From NCBI GenBank assembly GCA_003153855.1, contig PMBM01000046.1, forward strand, positions 4,699 to 16,012: a stretch of 11,314 nucleotides of DNA. The letters run 5' to 3'. Positions within the stretch are counted from its first letter, which is position 1. Each line of letters opens with the position of its first letter. The position numbers and the translations under genes are program-made. The DNA comes from Propionibacteriaceae bacterium. GTDB lineage: Bacteria; Actinomycetota; Actinomycetes; Propionibacteriales; Propionibacteriaceae. This document shows positions 322 to 10,894 of the stretch, piece by piece. The notes beneath the pieces are model-generated. The model was not told the origin of the DNA. It searched no databases and was given only the letters and a program-made list of their open reading frames with translations.

Positions 322-364
322 CTGGCACGTGGCCGTGGCGGCACTTCCGCGCGAGGTACCAGCG

Positions 365-533
365 GAGACCCCGAGTCGTGGTTCTTCTGAGCATGCTTGA
401 AGGACGTTCCTCGGCGAGGACCCGAGCTGTGGTTGTTCTCGGCCCCGATGGTGCGCTGATAAGCACCACCAGTCGGGTTCTCGATCTCGGAGCTGCCCAC
501 AGCCCCGCGAGAACAACCACAGCTCGGGTTCCG
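365..533. repeat. Four-unit symmetric repeat element, copy 1 (forward-forward-reverse-reverse)
   Basis: Four related 28-nt units lie at 365-392 (+), 416-443 (+), 455-482 (-) and 506-533 (-), separated by spacers of 23, 11 and 23 nt. The layout is symmetric about base 449. All units carry CCG at unit positions 7-9 and TT-T at positions 21, 22 and 24. Unit 2 and the inverted unit 4 share a perfect 22-nt inverted repeat (420-441 against 508-529). Units 1 and 3 agree at 22 of 28 positions. Smaller hairpins sit inside: TCCTC-GGC-GAGGA at 408-420 and TGGTGC-N8-GCACCA at 449-468. The element fills most of the gap between hppA and the META-domain gene and has no convincing ORF. Copy 2 at 8781-8949 has the same dimensions. 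It could be a structured RNA or terminator, a multi-site protein-binding element, or a small non-autonomous mobile repeat; the sequence does not decide. Confidence 0.85.
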
Positions 534-568
534 GCTCCACGGCCCGACGCCAGCGGTGTACTGGAGAC

Positions 569-1693: not shown

Positions 1694-3520
1694 ATGAAAC
1701 GGTTGGGATTGGTGCTCGCGACGTTGGTGCTGGCTCTCGGGGTTGTCGCGGTGGCCTCTCCAAAGGCCTACGCGGCAAGTGCTCCCATCACACGCATGGC
1801 TGTCACGGCGTCCGTGGCGACCGACGGGACCATCACGGTGGCCGAGGAGTTCGACATGGACTTCACCACCGCCGGCCACGGTCCCTACCTCTACTTCACG
1901 ACGCGGCAGGGGAGCGGACAGACCAACCAGTACCGCATCTACGACTACCACTTCGTGAGCGTGACCAGCTCGACCGGAGCCCCGACGACGTTCATCACCG
2001 AGACGCCGCAGTACGGCACCACGGCGCTGCGGATCGGCGACGCCAGCAAGACGGTGACCGGCACCCAGACGTACACGGTCTCGTACACGGTGAAGGGCAT
2101 CGTCAACCCGAACGTCAGCTCGAGCAGCATGGACGAGCTGTACTGGAACGTCATCGGCACCGGCTTCACGATCCCGATCAGCAACATCACGGTGAACGTG
2201 ACGGGTCCCGCGGCCGTTCAGAAGACCACCTGCTACATGGGCGCGAACTTCGACCAGTCCTGCACCGCCAACACCTTCTCCGGCGACAAGGCCACGTACT
2301 CGCAGACCAACCTGTCGACCGGTCAGGGGCTCGCGATCGCGGCCGGCTGGCCGGTCGGCACGTTCGTGAACGCGGAGCCGACGTTCGAGACACACACCGG
2401 CTCGACGAGCAGCAGCTCTCCGCTGGCCTCTCTGACCTCGCCCATCGGTCTCGGAGCTGCGGGCGTCGTGGTGCTCGGTGCGATCGGCTGGCTGATCGCG
2501 GCGTCACGGCGCGGACGCGACGAGATGTACGCGGGGCTGACGCCCGGCCTCGTGCCGGTGGCCGGTGAGCCGGCGCCGGTGGTCAAGGTGAGCTCGATCC
2601 CGTTCGCCGTACAGTTCACGCCGCCGAAGGGCGTCCTGCCGGGCATGATCGGCACGCTGTTCGACGAGAAGGCCGAGACCAGGGACGTGACGGCCACGCT
2701 CGTCGACCTCGCGGCGCGCGGCTTCTGGCGGATCGAGCAGCCCGACCCCAAGGGCGACTTCCAGATCGTCAGGCTGGCCCCGCCCAAGGGTCTGACCGCG
2801 TACGAGCAGCTGCTGTACGACGCGCTGTTCGGCGACGGCTCACAGGTCGTCACGAGCAGCGAGCTGCAGGGCAAGTCGTTCGGCCAGTCCGTACAGTCCA
2901 TCGAGCGTGAGCTGTACAACGCGGTCACGGCCGTCGGCTGGTTCAAGGGCAACCCGCAGTCGGCCCGCGGCGTCCGGTCCGCATTCGGCATCGTCCTGGC
3001 CGTCGCAGGGTTCTTCCTCAGCTTCAACGGCGGGTTCGTCGTCGGGGTCCCGCTCGTGGTGGTCGGCGCCGCCGTGGCGATCAGTGCACGCTTCGCGCCC
3101 GTCCGTTCGGCGGTCGGCAGTGCGATGACGAGCCAAGCGCTGGGCTTCAAGCAGTACCTGGAGACCGCCGAGGCCGACCAGATCAAGTGGGAGGAAGGTC
3201 AGGACATCTTCTCCCGCTACCTCCCGTACGCGATCGCCTACGGCTGTGCGGACCGCTGGGCGAAGATCTTCGCCGACCTCGCTGCTCGGGGGGTGCCCAT
3301 CACGCAACCGACCTGGTACATCGGGCCGGGGTACGGCTACGGCTACGGAGCTGCGTGGGGCGCCGGCGGCTTCGACTCCATCATCAGCACGTTGGACGGC
3401 TTCAGCTCCTCCGCGGCCACGGCCATGACCGCTGCCACAGCCGGCTCGAGCGGCGGCTCGGGATTCTCCGGCGGCGGCTTCGGCGGCGGCGGTGGCGGCG
3501 GGGGCGGCGGCAGCTGGTGA
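1694..3520 (+). CDS. DUF2207 family membrane protein, paralogue 1
   Basis: The 608-residue protein has a signal peptide (residues 1-27, likely cut after AYA), an extracytoplasmic beta-rich domain (about 30-240) with cysteines 180 and 190 that may form a disulfide, a transmembrane helix (about 245-268) followed by SRRGRDE, a cytosolic region (about 290-425), a helical hairpin in the membrane (about 428-466), then a conserved block with YLETAEADQI and YLPYAIAYGC. It ends in a glycine-rich tail closing in GSW. This order is that of DUF2207 (YciQ-type) predicted membrane proteins, whose function is not established. The frame stays open to 1175, but that extension is antisense to the YqeY-like gene; the ATG at 1694 directly precedes the signal peptide. 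The stop overlaps the GTG of the next paralogue, so the two are probably co-expressed. Confidence 0.85.
   Translation: MKRLGLVLATLVLALGVVAVASPKAYAASAPITRMAVTASVATDGTITVAEEFDMDFTTAGHGPYLYFTTRQGSGQTNQYRIYDYHFVSVTSSTGAPTTFITETPQYGTTALRIGDASKTVTGTQTYTVSYTVKGIVNPNVSSSSMDELYWNVIGTGFTIPISNITVNVTGPAAVQKTTCYMGANFDQSCTANTFSGDKATYSQTNLSTGQGLAIAAGWPVGTFVNAEPTFETHTGSTSSSSPLASLTSPIGLGAAGVVVLGAIGWLIAASRRGRDEMYAGLTPGLVPVAGEPAPVVKVSSIPFAVQFTPPKGVLPGMIGTLFDEKAETRDVTATLVDLAARGFWRIEQPDPKGDFQIVRLAPPKGLTAYEQLLYDALFGDGSQVVTSSELQGKSFGQSVQSIERELYNAVTAVGWFKGNPQSARGVRSAFGIVLAVAGFFLSFNGGFVVGVPLVVVGAAVAISARFAPVRSAVGSAMTSQALGFKQYLETAEADQIKWEEGQDIFSRYLPYAIAYGCADRWAKIFADLAARGVPITQPTWYIGPGYGYGYGAAWGAGGFDSIISTLDGFSSSAATAMTAATAGSSGGSGFSGGGFGGGGGGGGGGSW
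3440..3517 (+). repeat. Glycine-tail coding repeat, copy in paralogue 1
   Basis: This GGC-rich stretch encodes the tail GSSGGSGFSGGG followed by a long Gly run and SW. Its first 39 nt (3440-3478) match 5281-5319 in paralogue 2 at 36 positions. The low-complexity GGC tracts are prone to slippage, so the exact number of glycines may differ between strains. Confidence 0.75.
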
Positions 3521-5370
3521 GCCGCCCGCCGGCCGGCCGGAAGTACGTCGCGACCGCCCTCATCGCCGTCTTCGCGATCACCGTGGTGTTGGGCGGGCTG
3601 ATCGCCTTGGGCCTTCGGCAAGGGCAGGACTCGATCACGCGGATGGACATCGCCGCCCATATCGCGGCGGACGGGTCGCTCGCCGTCACCGAGACGTTCG
3701 ACGTGCACTTCGTCGGGACCGGCCACGGACCGTACGTCTACTTCGTCACCCGGCAGGCGACGGGCACGAAGGACCAGTACCGGGAACTGGACTACTCGGT
3801 GACCGGGGTGACCAGCCCCACGGGTGCCCCGGCGGACCAGGTGATCAGCGCACCGAGCTACGGCGTGCTGATGGTCCGGATCGGCAACCCGGACGTCCAA
3901 GTGAGCGGTGACCAGACGTACGTGCTCACGTACACGGTGTCCGGCGTCGTGAACCCCAAGGTCGTCGCAAGCGGGATGGACGAGCTGTACTGGAACGTCA
4001 TCGGGACCGGCTGGACCCTCTCCATGTCCAACATCACCGTCACGCTGACCTCCGACGCCGAGATCTCTGCGACCCAGTGTCTGCAGGGGAGTACCTACTC
4101 GGGGAGCTGTGCAGACTCGGGGTCGGGCAGCAGCGCCACGTACAGGCAGGACAGCCTGGCGCCGGGTCAGGGGATGGCGATCGTCGCCGGATGGCCGTGG
4201 GGAACGTTCAGCGCTGCCGAGCCCACGTACAGCACGCACTCGACCCCGCCGCCGGCCTTCGAGATGACCCCCCTCAAGGACGCGGTGGTCGGTGGGTCGG
4301 TGCTCCTCGTCCTGGTCTGCGGCGTGGTGCTGTGGTGGCGGGGCAGGGACCAGATCTTCACCGCAGTCTCGCCCGGACTGCTGCCGATGGCGAACGAGAC
4401 CGCCGATACGCGGCGGGTCCGTCAGGTGCCGTACGCCGTCCGCTTCTCCCCACCGGATGCCGTCGGCCCTGGCATGGTCGGCACCCTCCTGGATCGCAAG
4501 GCCGACATCGTCGACGTGACGGCGACGCTCACGGATCTCGCCGTACGCGGGCTGATCCGTTTCGAGGCCAGGAAGAGCTCGGACATCCCGCGGATCCACA
4601 AGGTGGTGGCCGACCCGCAGGGGCTGGTCCCGTACGAGCAGGAGCTCTTCGACGCGCTCTTCCCGAAGGGCGCGCTCAAGGCCGGTACGGGCAGGCTGAC
4701 CGGCCATCCGTTCGGCTTGGCGGTGTCGAAGGTCCGCCACGACCTGTACGCGGCGGTGGTCGAGGCCGGATGGTTCTCCAGCCCTCCCGACTCGACCAAG
4801 ACCGTGCTCACGGTCGGCGCGGTGGTCGCCCTCACCGCTTCGATCATCACCCTCGGGTTCGGAGCATTCTTCGGGTGGGGCCTGCTCGCCGTCCCGGTGC
4901 TCCTGCTCGCCGTCGTCCTCTTCGTCGCCCGGTGGTGGCTGCCCGCCAGGACTCCCGCGGGCAGCGCCCTGCTGTCGCAGACCCTCGGGTTCAAGCTGTA
5001 CCTCGAGACCGCGGAGGCCGACCAGATCGCGTTCGAAGAGGCGGAGAACATCTTCTCCCACTACCTCCCCTACGCCATCGCGTTCGGCTGCGTCGACCAC
5101 TGGGTCTCGGTGTTCGCCGAGCTGGTCGACCGTGGCGCACCCATGTCGACTCCCGCCTGGTACTCCGGCGGCAGCAACGCGTCCCTCCAGACGATGTTCG
5201 CTGCGACAGGGTCGAACTCGTTGACCGGGATATTCACCGGCCTGGGGAACTCGTTCGACTCGGCCGTCTACACGCCCACGGCCGGCTCCAGCGGCGGATC
5301 GGGATTCTCCGGCGGTGGCGGTGGGTTCAGCGGCGGCGGCATCGGCGGCGGCGGGGGCGGCACGTGGTGA
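3517..5370 (+). CDS. DUF2207 family membrane protein, paralogue 2
   Basis: The 617-residue protein starts at a GTG that overlaps the previous stop (GTGA, 3517-3520), a layout typical of translational coupling. It has the same order as paralogue 1: an N-terminal hydrophobic helix (about 11-33), an extracytoplasmic domain with cysteines 188 and 198, a transmembrane helix (about 256-274), a cytosolic region, a membrane hairpin (about 429-475), the YLETAEADQI and YLPYAIAFGC blocks, and a Gly-rich tail ending GTW. It lacks the AxA cleavage site of paralogue 1, so the N-terminal helix may stay as an anchor. The frame is open back to 3187 but only as a shadow of paralogue 1. The two proteins probably arose by tandem duplication and may form a hetero-oligomer; function is unknown. 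Confidence 0.85.
   Translation: MSRPPAGRKYVATALIAVFAITVVLGGLIALGLRQGQDSITRMDIAAHIAADGSLAVTETFDVHFVGTGHGPYVYFVTRQATGTKDQYRELDYSVTGVTSPTGAPADQVISAPSYGVLMVRIGNPDVQVSGDQTYVLTYTVSGVVNPKVVASGMDELYWNVIGTGWTLSMSNITVTLTSDAEISATQCLQGSTYSGSCADSGSGSSATYRQDSLAPGQGMAIVAGWPWGTFSAAEPTYSTHSTPPPAFEMTPLKDAVVGGSVLLVLVCGVVLWWRGRDQIFTAVSPGLLPMANETADTRRVRQVPYAVRFSPPDAVGPGMVGTLLDRKADIVDVTATLTDLAVRGLIRFEARKSSDIPRIHKVVADPQGLVPYEQELFDALFPKGALKAGTGRLTGHPFGLAVSKVRHDLYAAVVEAGWFSSPPDSTKTVLTVGAVVALTASIITLGFGAFFGWGLLAVPVLLLAVVLFVARWWLPARTPAGSALLSQTLGFKLYLETAEADQIAFEEAENIFSHYLPYAIAFGCVDHWVSVFAELVDRGAPMSTPAWYSGGSNASLQTMFAATGSNSLTGIFTGLGNSFDSAVYTPTAGSSGGSGFSGGGGGFSGGGIGGGGGGTW
5281..5367 (+). repeat. Glycine-tail coding repeat, copy in paralogue 2
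   Basis: This is the second copy of the Gly-tail coding stretch, starting GSSGGSGFSGGG, with an extra GFSGGG repeat before the final Gly run and TW. It matches 3440-3478 at 36 of 39 nt in its first part. The two copies are far closer than most of the rest of the two genes. Confidence 0.75.
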
Positions 5371-7826: not shown

Positions 7827-8783
7827 ATGCGCACCCCCAGGCCATGGACCCTGCCCACCCAACCCGTCACCCGCGCGCTGCTGCTGGCTGCCGGAGTGAC
7901 GCGCGCCATGGTGGCGACCCAGGTGGCGAACGGTCGCCTGGTCCGGCTCCGCCGGGGAGTCTTCGTCAGTGCCGAGAGCTGGCCCGACGAACCGGCCGGG
8001 CAGCACCTCGTGCGTGCCCATGCCGAGCAGGTGGCCAACCCGGACGCGGTGATGAGCCACGCTTCGGCGGCGGTGTTCTGGGGCTTGCCGTCTCCCGGCT
8101 TCCACGACTGGGACGAGTCTGCGGTCTCCCTCACGCTGCCCTCCACCGGCAACGGAGCGCGCCACCCTGCCGCTGAGTGGCACATTGCGTCGCTTCCGGC
8201 TTCGCATGTCGCTCGGGACCGGGACGGCTATCTCGTGACGTCGCTGGCCCGGACCGCTGTCGACCTCTCCGCGGGCCTGTCGCTGCCCGAGGCGCTCGTG
8301 ATCCTTGACGCCGCAGGACGGCGGCTCGTCGCGTCGTTCGTCACGTCGCCGCGCCGATCCGACTACGTGAGTCCGCGACTGGTCCGCGCGGTTCGGGAGG
8401 CCCTGTCGGATCCGGTGGGTCGACGTTGGCGCACTCAGCTTCTCCCGGCCATCGAGCGCGTGCAGCCGTGCCGGGAGTCGGCCGCAGAGTCGCTCACGGC
8501 CGGCCACCTGCACCTGTCAGGTCTGCCGATGCCGGAGTTCCAAGCGAAGATCGTGACGCCCAGCGGGACGTTCTACCCAGACTGTTACTGGCGTGACGCG
8601 CGACTCGTCGGCGAGTGCGACGGAAAGCTCAAGTACGCCAGTCGCGACGACCTCGTGGCGGAGAAGCAGCGCGAACAGGTGCTGCGAGACGAGGGCAACA
8701 GGTTCGTACGGTGGCTCGGTGGCGAGATCATGGCCAGGCCGAGCGAGGTGATGGATCGGATCGCTCGCGCGCTGGGCGTCTGA
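7827..8783 (+). CDS. AbiEi-type antitoxin-like protein with C-terminal PD-(D/E)XK (DUF559-like) domain
   Basis: The protein has 318 residues. The N-terminus (about 8-50) is a winged-helix region of the AbiEi antitoxin type (LLLAAGVTRAMVATQVANGR, then LVRLRRGVFV). The middle carries family marks SHASAAVFWGLPSP (77-90) and TSLARTAVDLSAGLS (138-152). The C-terminus resembles the Vsr/DUF559 nuclease fold: PD at 251-252, then the strand LVGECDGKLKY (260-270) with Glu263 and Asp265. AbiEi proteins act as antitoxins of type IV systems with a nucleotidyltransferase toxin, but no AbiEii gene is present here, so this is an orphan that may instead be a nuclease or DNA-binding protein. The frame is open back to 7344 only as antisense of the SixA gene; the ATG at 7827 has CAGACT 6 nt upstream. 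The stop codon lies inside the repeat element at 8781-8949. Confidence 0.78.
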   Translation: MRTPRPWTLPTQPVTRALLLAAGVTRAMVATQVANGRLVRLRRGVFVSAESWPDEPAGQHLVRAHAEQVANPDAVMSHASAAVFWGLPSPGFHDWDESAVSLTLPSTGNGARHPAAEWHIASLPASHVARDRDGYLVTSLARTAVDLSAGLSLPEALVILDAAGRRLVASFVTSPRRSDYVSPRLVRAVREALSDPVGRRWRTQLLPAIERVQPCRESAAESLTAGHLHLSGLPMPEFQAKIVTPSGTFYPDCYWRDARLVGECDGKLKYASRDDLVAEKQREQVLRDEGNRFVRWLGGEIMARPSEVMDRIARALGV

Positions 8784-8949
8784 CTTCCGTGTTCGGTGGG
8801 TTATCAGCGGGAGGCGGGAAGCAACACAAGGCGACTTCCGTGTTGTGCAGGTTATGGAGGGTCGTGGACGCCCCATAAGCCACCGAACACGGAAGTCGCG
8901 GTCCGGGCAGAAGGCGAGCGTCCCCATAACCCGCCGATCACGGAAGACG
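8781..8949. repeat. Four-unit symmetric repeat element, copy 2 (forward-forward-reverse-reverse)
   Basis: Four 28-nt units lie at 8781-8808 (+), 8832-8859 (+), 8871-8898 (-) and 8922-8949 (-), symmetric about base 8865. The offsets 0, 51, 90 and 141 are identical to those of copy 1 at 365-533. Every unit has CTTCCGTG at unit positions 4-11 and TTAT at 21-24. Units 1 and 3 agree at 23 of 28 positions, with 18 identical nt in a row, and units 2 and 4 at 22 of 28. The element begins at the stop codon of the AbiEi-like gene and ends 3 bp before the stop codon of the convergent methyltransferase gene, so it fills the whole gap. It may serve as a two-way terminator, but there is no T-run and the spacing is far more regular than a terminator needs. 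Confidence 0.87.
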
Positions 8950-10004: not shown

Positions 10005-10532
10005 GTGACGAAGGCGGCCAGTCGGAAGGCGAGTCCCGACGAGCTCGTCCCCGGTGTCTTCCACGGCCACACCGACACCCATCCCGAACTGCCGGTCGAT
10101 GCCGACGTCGACTCGACAGGGCATTTCCACGGTCCGCTGCACCTTCGGTGGCGCTACATCTACGTGGTCTTCCTCGGCGGAGTGTTCGGTACGACGGCGC
10201 GGTACCTCTTCTCGCTGTGGATCCCCAAGACCGACGGCCTGCCGATCCCCACGCTCGCGGTGAACCTGCTCGGGGCGTTCCTACTCGGCCTGCTGCTCGA
10301 GCGCGTCACCGTCTCGGGCCCTGACCACGGCTGGCACCGCCTGGCGCGGCTCCACTTCGGAACGGGCTTCCTCGGCGCCTTCACCACCTACTCGTCGTTC
10401 GCCGTCGAGACCGTCCTCCTGACCCACGCCGGCCGCTTCGGCTGGGCGGTCCTCTACCTCGCCGGCACCCTGGTCGGCGGGGTGCTGCTCTGCGCCGCCG
10501 GCATCAGGTTCGGGGGTCGACGGTCATGGTGA
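10005..10532 (+). CDS. crcB: Fluoride-exporting channel subunit FluC/CrcB, first of pair, with His-rich N-terminal extension
   Basis: The protein has 175 residues, about 50 more than a usual FluC. After a hydrophilic extension rich in His and Asp (HGHTDTH at 20-26, GHFHGPLH at 39-46) comes the four-helix FluC core: GGVFGTTARY (58-67), the PTLAVNLLGAFLLG segment with Asn87, GTGFLGAFTTYSSF (119-132) at the break of helix 3 that holds the central Na+ and the fluoride pore residues, and the last helix (about 147-168). FluC channels let F- leave the cytoplasm down its gradient and work as antiparallel dimers. The next gene encodes a second subunit and overlaps this one by 7 bp, which suggests an obligate heterodimer. 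GTG 10005 is supported by TAGGGT 7 nt upstream. Confidence 0.92.
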   Translation: MTKAASRKASPDELVPGVFHGHTDTHPELPVDADVDSTGHFHGPLHLRWRYIYVVFLGGVFGTTARYLFSLWIPKTDGLPIPTLAVNLLGAFLLGLLLERVTVSGPDHGWHRLARLHFGTGFLGAFTTYSSFAVETVLLTHAGRFGWAVLYLAGTLVGGVLLCAAGIRFGGRRSW

Positions 10533-10894
10533 TGCTGCTGGTAGCCCTGTGCGGGGGCCTCGGGGCGGTCGCGCGCTTCGTCGTCGACGGGCTGATCCGT
10601 GGCCGAGTACGGTCCATCGGCTCGATCGGCACCCTCATCATCAACGTCACCGGCGCCATCGCGCTGGGGATCATCGCCGGCCTCGTCGCCGCGCACGTGG
10701 CGCAGCCCGACTGGCAGATCGTCATCGGTACGGGCTTCCTCGGCGGCTACACCACCTTCTCGACGACGTCCTTCGAGACCGTACGACTGATCCAGCAGGG
10801 CAGGTTCAGCCTCGCTGTCGGACTGGGGCTGCTGCAGCTCTCGCTCGCGCTGGCCGGCGCGGCAGGCGGATTCGCCGTCGGGCTCTCGCTCTAG
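10526..10894 (+). CDS. crcB: Fluoride-exporting channel subunit FluC/CrcB, second of pair
   Basis: The protein has 122 residues, the usual FluC length, with four helices and no extension. It shows CGGLGAVARF (9-18), GTLIINVTGAIALGI with Asn40, and GTGFLGGYTTFSTTSFET (68-85). The start ATG lies inside the end of the first crcB gene (ATGGTGA, 10526-10532), so the two are translated together. Paired crcB genes in Gram-positive bacteria encode subunits of opposite topology that form one two-pore channel, while single crcB genes encode dual-topology homodimers. The charge around the first helix differs between the two proteins here, in keeping with opposite insertion, though this was judged by eye. 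Confidence 0.92.
   Translation: MVMLLVALCGGLGAVARFVVDGLIRGRVRSIGSIGTLIINVTGAIALGIIAGLVAAHVAQPDWQIVIGTGFLGGYTTFSTTSFETVRLIQQGRFSLAVGLGLLQLSLALAGAAGGFAVGLSL

Follow-up and report, generated by a model that had tools for sequence, protein, structure and literature searches.

A four-unit intergenic repeat coupled to an AbiEi-like nuclease gene in a Propionibacteriaceae genome

The stretch of DNA analysed here (the window; 11,314 nucleotides, positions 4,699 to 16,012 of contig PMBM01000046.1) belongs to a 3.67-Mb draft genome, 78% complete, of a Propionibacteriaceae bacterium (GCA_003153855.1). It contains two elements of 169 bp, each built of four 28-nt units, and a gene (7827..8783, + strand) that ends inside the second of them and is modelled as encoding an AbiEi-like DNA-binding region joined to a Vsr/homing-endonuclease-like nuclease domain. 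Comparison with related genomes reveals that gene and element are coupled, that each paralog of the gene has one family of unit sequences, and that the units co-vary with the N-terminal part of the protein; the elements are intergenic, sit mostly at species-specific positions, and occur as whole-element duplicates in Propionicicella superfundia. These sequence comparisons suggest, with a probability of roughly 0.55, a domesticated nuclease accompanied by cognate non-autonomous elements, a system that would work like the REPtrons with unrelated parts. Recognition of the units by the cognate protein is well supported, and we infer that the nuclease may also spread the elements.

Copy 1 (365..533) has two forward units (365..392 and 416..443, + strand) followed by two reverse units (455..482 and 506..533, - strand), and copy 2 (8781..8949) has the same layout, with units at 8781..8808 and 8832..8859 (+) and at 8871..8898 and 8922..8949 (-); both elements are symmetric and, taken whole, carry no strand. 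Scanning for four 28-nt units in the order forward-forward-reverse-reverse at offsets 0/51/90/141 without regard to their sequence, and counting matching letter pairs out of 168, gave 121 for copy 1 and 131 for copy 2, against 84 for the runner-up place in the window and 87 for the top of 200 shuffled windows (whole window, mononucleotide shuffling within 60-base blocks). The layout described in the original prediction is thus confirmed for both copies. The fixed letters that it proposed, CCG at unit positions 7-9 and T at 21, 22 and 24, hold by eye in the window's eight units and fail in the wider family; the letters found most often there are C7 (0.87), T24 (0.87), T22 (0.78), G20 (0.76) and G17 (0.71). 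The units were also said to agree within an element and to differ between the two; this is so because the copies represent two specificity families with two paralogous genes, the dispersed copy 1 belonging to family B and the gene-adjacent copy 2 to family A. Copy 2 lies between the ends of two convergent genes, and the stop codon of the 7827-8783 gene falls inside its unit 1.

The product of this family A cognate gene has Pfam-A matches to AbiEi_4 and MTES_1575, both under the curated cut-offs, and a PADLOC match to AbiEi (1.2e-11); NCBIfam has no match for this protein or for that of the paralog L008 (G000:C195:9751-10704). In the AlphaFold model (pLDDT, the predicted local distance difference test, 93.4), residues 3-213 form the AbiEi-like region and residues from about 216 to 318 the Vsr/homing-endonuclease-like nuclease domain. 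The structural matches of the model (6y8q, 3r3p, 1cw0 and 3hrl) cover it with AbiEi-like and Vsr-like folds, in a comparison made against a listed set of families that leaves room for families outside the list. The protein is therefore predicted to combine an AbiEi-type fold with a nuclease of the homing fold class. The nuclease residues E217, E221, D252, E263, D265, K269, E279 and K280 are invariant across 50 sequences. Pfam-A at E 0.001 finds no transposase in this gene beside copy 2, and the protein does not qualify as an HUH (Y1) enzyme.

Eight full-length copies of the gene are present in the genome, the other seven being 53-60% identical to that of the window. The scan places an element beside seven of the eight, and by eye the eighth has one across an assembly gap. 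The records that yielded the closest homologs of the window gene are labelled Propionibacteriaceae or another name within Propionibacteriales, apart from a few with vaguer labels. Among the 40 close homologs with usable flanks (7 from this genome and 33 of 39 homolog loci), 38 have an element beside the gene at a score cut of 90, below which L052 and L065 fall, and the units differ from gene to gene. In 36 of these 38 the element is 3' of the gene, about 25 nt or less from where the reading frame ends; the 5' windows of 25 re-scanned loci scored 63-86, and for L007, whose contig stops 3' of the gene, the 5' element was used. The test omits L054 (contig end), L075 and L076 (partial genes) and L077-L079 (distant); L001 is a duplicate of the window, and an assembly gap interrupts L006. 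Among distant homologs (30-40% identity), none of 19 loci with usable flanks reaches a score of 95, a few scoring 88-94 at other spacings; this count leaves out L091, L103 and L107 (contig ends) and treats L108 apart. Coupling is therefore claimed for the close clade only.

Some distant homologs stand beside repeats of other kinds. L108 (G033:C1 near 4848481-4849796), a distant homolog (30%) in another family, lies beside a 20-bp tandem array that runs forward and then inverted; similar repeats occur near G033:C1 339212, 1544474, 6991637 and 7182525 and not in two congeners. The array may follow the same principle in another construction. Near the genes at L077 and L078 are other short repeats, of the GTCGCTAC type.

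By the original prediction, a lack of further elements with this spacing in this or related genomes would have made the two cases a coincidence. A covariance model, trained on a gapless alignment of 17 elements (without L005, L061 and L067), gave 126 matches over the two strands, corresponding to 65 distinct places including the two in the window, so that coincidence can be dismissed. Ten of the 17 training elements are this genome's own, so that their match to the model is built in, and one of the 65 places, L191 (score 65), is unconvincing and lacks the four-unit pattern. The spacing is exactly 51/39/51 in 43 of the 65. Of the 58 elements that do not adjoin a nuclease gene, 53 could be assigned, by a margin of 0.05 or more, to one gene-adjacent element: that of L002 (17), of the window gene (11), of L007 (7), of L008 (6), of L003 (5), of L004 (4) or of L005 (3). 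This nearest-cognate assignment, which set no minimum similarity and did not include the broken element of L006, was used because average-linkage clustering merged related families. Copy 1 resembles the L008-adjacent element (similarity 0.797; next 0.622). The five ambiguous elements include L191, L179 and L190; no gene was seen for the unit sequence, or word, of L179 and L190 in this genome, which is 78% complete.

A co-varying DNA-binding protein had been suggested as one explanation for units that change together, and the cognate family fits this suggestion. In Mantel tests on 38 gene-element pairs, with the unit register left free, unit distance tracked most closely the distance between residues 1-90 (r 0.489, p 2e-4; codons 1-90 of the window gene, 7827..8096, + strand). 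The association was weak for residues 91-205 (r 0.21, p 0.011) and not clear for the nuclease domain, residues 206-318 (r 0.12, p 0.10). It persisted for residues 1-90 after conditioning on the nuclease domain (0.479), the converse partial correlation being 0.057. Windows at 181-220 and 226-250 gave r 0.22-0.27 (p 0.003, 300 permutations). Within the N-terminal part, the association links residues 51-90 to unit positions 5-16 and residues 1-50 to 11-28.

The same units could in principle act in RNA, as transcribed hairpins at gene 3' ends that serve as terminators or messenger RNA stabilisers, which would suit both the 3'-end bias of the elements and the covariation of their arms. A hairpin, however, needs unit 1 to match unit 4 and unit 2 to match unit 3 only, and the non-pairing units are as alike as the pairing ones (outer-outer 0.777, inner-inner 0.787, outer-inner 0.781). 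The 256 units of this genome have a mean folding energy of -5.37, compared with -5.41 after shuffling. Likeness of this kind, together with folding at the shuffled level, points to double-stranded sites rather than to a hairpin function. As unit sequence also tracks the DNA-binding domain of the neighbouring protein, and the window has no Rfam match, an RNA-level role is very improbable.

Elements were found in all nine relatives that have a close homolog of the gene (G001-G006, G013, G022 and G029; best E 4e-97 or lower) and in none of 34 other relatives tested with the model, 25 of which have distant homologs. This co-occurrence has a p of 1.8e-9 when kinship is ignored, six of the nine genomes being of one genus and three of other genera. 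Between 71 and 150 of the best candidates per genome were scored, at cut-offs of 0.001 or 1e-4, so that elements unlike the model could escape it, and the model search covered all but 13 of the 57 genomes surveyed. Four named genomes were also searched and all four had matches, P. superfundia and Actino_02 sharing places with G029 and G013. Of the gene, two matches of 30-34% identity lie on Tsukamurella plasmids.

A restriction-like nuclease that is held, regulated or titrated by chromosomal elements and acts on invading DNA only would be in keeping with the PADLOC match and with the presence in one genome of several paralogs with different units. Such a defence or self-marking role is nevertheless improbable. 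Among the 13 proteins of the window that were scanned, Pfam names neither AbiEii nor any other toxin or defence partner (PADLOC was not applied to the neighbours); the products of the genes near the nuclease gene are a histidine phosphatase, a UPF0020 methyltransferase and others. Furthermore, no homolog of the gene occurs in 50,697 phage records, and none of 31 pattern-matching stretches on viral contigs was confirmed as a relative. Dispersed copies that vary in number and place would also be needless for a self-mark.

The positions of the elements likewise bear on what they do. Of the 65 elements in this genome, 31 lie in codirectional, 26 in convergent and 5 in divergent gaps (convergent versus divergent, p 1.9e-4), and 3 overlap a predicted frame; the frames overlapping copy 1 and L182 look spurious. 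At the locus of the window gene, an element also lies 3' of the ortholog in the sister genomes G001, G003, G004, G005 and G006. Dispersed elements mostly differ in position. The gap that holds copy 1 (window 322-568) lacks an element in G002, G003, G004 and G005 (the G005 intergenic DNA does not align there), and in G001 it has an element of another family. Two L300 sites are empty in 6/6 and 5/5 sister genomes; of two L301 sites, one is empty in G005, and the second is occupied in G005 by an element of another family and empty in G006. In total, 17 of 19 orthologous-site comparisons found an empty site and 2 an element of another family. The original prediction had offered a mobile or amplifying repeat family as its other reading and proposed a comparison for empty sites. 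The outcome agrees with such a family, since positions mostly differ between species and element-bounded duplicates are present in P. superfundia, and the two readings offered there are thus supported together. The gene beside copy 1, a META-domain gene at 569-1159 of the window, is matched in G005 and not in the same gap of G001-G004, and a dispersed element (L301:7913-10068) stands at a breakpoint in gene order relative to G005/G006.

P. superfundia has 42 elements, which fall into a group of 32 and a group of 10 (L395, in the smaller group, is doubtful); the two groups fit its two close homologs. Here the spacers are related within families (0.50 and 0.61, versus 0.40 between families). L374 and L376 are 96.9% copies, 27 kb apart and inverted, whose similarity ends 7-13 bp outside the element; judged from its sequence, this pair is a recent element-bounded copy. 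One nuclease gene in this species is bracketed by elements on both sides and is possibly a composite unit. Across 11 aligned copies, conservation runs from the first bases of unit 1 to the end of unit 4.

Several results speak against a simple account of a nuclease that copies its elements. A check of flanks at the protein level, covering 58 dispersed loci of this genome, 27 of G001, 29 of G004 and 3 of G006, found two dispersed sites common to two species on both flanks and several on one. L113 of this genome and L212 of G004 have orthologous flanks on both sides and the same ACTTCCGTG word, and L230 of G004 and L242 of G001 have orthologous flanks and related words (blastn alone linked the latter two on one flank only). 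In both pairs the flanks are 75-82% identical and the spacers unrelated (0.28 and 0.34). Some elements have thus been inherited, their units kept while the spacers drifted, which fits selected binding sites. Spacers of same-family pairs in this genome, G001 and G004 are no more alike than unrelated ones (0.358 vs 0.353); only 2 of 266 pairs exceed the 99th percentile, while the unit cores are 78% identical. Units of the purest families agree about equally within and between elements (0.733/0.722 in family A of this genome), and the higher agreement within elements when nine families are pooled (0.781 vs 0.716) arises because related families were merged. The flanks of 130 elements contain no clear target motif, and target-site duplications of 3-9 bases occur there near the shuffled level (at 6 bases, 8 vs 3.7 +- 1.9), although old duplications could have decayed. 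In G004, the near-identical copies L224/L227/L233 and L262/L263/L264 reach 25-200 bp past the element and may belong to a larger repeat. Finally, the genomes are mostly draft metagenome-assembled genomes. The results on spacers, shared sites, duplications and motifs, and the G004 extensions lowered the probability of the nuclease-element system from about 0.60 to about 0.55, brought its domesticated homing-type version from slightly above even odds to even, and made a network of operators somewhat less improbable than before.

In such a network, each paralog would be a DNA-binding regulator or a chromosome-organising protein with four-site operators that selection on the host maintains. Its nuclease domain would have another role, and the elements would arise or spread otherwise. 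Units conserved amid random spacers, also at the two inherited sites, would be expected of it, as would units as alike between elements as within them and the strict spacing in two thirds of the elements (43/65). The siting of the elements, on the other hand, is the reverse of that of promoter operators, most tested positions are not common to species, the nuclease residues have stayed invariant, and whole elements have been duplicated in P. superfundia. An operator network is therefore considered unlikely. The elements might also be ordinary miniature inverted-repeat transposable elements (MITEs) of a classical transposon with its transposase elsewhere, the nuclease gene being a bystander. 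They do have inverted ends and are intergenic, multicopy and mostly lineage-specific in position; however, they lack target-site duplications, have one co-varying unit family per nuclease paralog and co-occur with close homologs of the nuclease gene, so that this explanation is hard to credit, although no search aimed at such a transposase was made.

Other observations concern the history of single sites. The extended copies of G004 share the outer flank TCGACGCC, and L264 breaks exactly at the element edge. Further sites have one or both flanks shared but different words, for example L190/L223. In the orthologous gaps at L166/L267 and L240/L115, one species has a nuclease gene with its element and the other an element with another word and no gene. 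Elements of different families occupy one gap across species at window 322-568, at L301:7917-8124 and at L190/L223. The presence of different words in the same gap of different species hints that sites may be reused or taken over by another family, or that elements have places where they prefer to land. Elsewhere in the window, at 1694-5370 and 10005-10894, are two tandem pairs, of DUF2207 membrane proteins and of CrcB-like proteins.

In published accounts, RAYT (TnpA-REP) genes are chromosomal nuclease genes, not visibly mobile, with cognate repeats beside them; a genome has several classes, each with its own repeat, and the REPINs are dispersed as non-autonomous intergenic copies (PMC3116915; PMC8266576). 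The present system resembles such REPtrons in having cognate repeats both beside the gene and dispersed between genes, and several classes per genome, so that its working is probably analogous, by analogy and not by homology. The enzyme here has an AbiEi winged helix and a Vsr-type nuclease, whereas RAYT is an HUH tyrosine transposase. Unlike REPINs, which consist of one or two hairpins with a GTAG tag, the elements have four non-hairpin units at the fixed 51/39/51 spacing, with unit similarity that points to double-stranded sites; GTAG begins 1 of the 256 units of this genome (other tags were outside the test). The AbiEi fold is shared with AbiE, a type IV toxin-antitoxin system, whose antitoxins differ from the present protein in that the latter has a C-terminal nuclease domain and dozens of dispersed cognate four-site elements; on the test made here the system is no member of AbiE, as Pfam recognises no toxin partner at the window locus. 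In contrast to I-Bth0305I, the Vsr nickase and the DUF559/MTES_1575 restriction endonucleases, no intron is seen, and the gene stands beside its element rather than inside it; on these tests it is no homing intron. Like MITEs and bacterial interspersed mosaic elements, the elements are short, inverted, intergenic and multicopy, but their fixed four-unit spacing and the cognate nuclease gene beside one copy set them apart, and the lack of target-site duplication in the 130 elements does not fit a MITE or DDE-type transposon. The original reader knew of no named element with this layout, and a search of open-licence literature (subscription papers and preprints lay outside it) agrees, bringing up no paper on the nuclease-element association. 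The system, found in some environmental relatives of propionibacteria, thus looks undescribed so far.

If the nuclease-element reading is right, the 169-bp element would be a double-stranded platform with two direct units and then the same pair in inverted orientation. A cognate winged-helix protein of the AbiEi type, bearing the Vsr/homing-endonuclease-type nuclease domain, would recognise it. The gene is as a rule followed by one such element, and non-autonomous elements with its unit lie dispersed in the intergenic DNA of that genome. Four (or two) copies of the protein may hold the four units together, and the nuclease may nick or cut at or next to the element and so drive copying through repair. 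Elements would spread by duplication and disappear again, and their places mostly vary from one species to the next. The fuller picture, for which the odds are even, is a genome-resident repeat system in which populations of four-site elements are maintained by a domesticated homing-type nuclease that owes its sequence specificity to an AbiEi winged helix; that specificity would have evolved anew in each paralog together with its elements, with old sites open to take-over by another paralog's word, all independently of RAYT and REPIN.

Such a system, if real, would be a second and unrelated solution beside the REPINs served by HUH enzymes, and would allow an independent comparison of what such systems are for. 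With seven or more protein-site families in one genome, it would also provide a natural data set for the specificity of the AbiEi winged helix. Both questions can be put to the test in a named isolate, P. superfundia DSM 22317, in whose genome two close homologs are present and 42 elements were examined.
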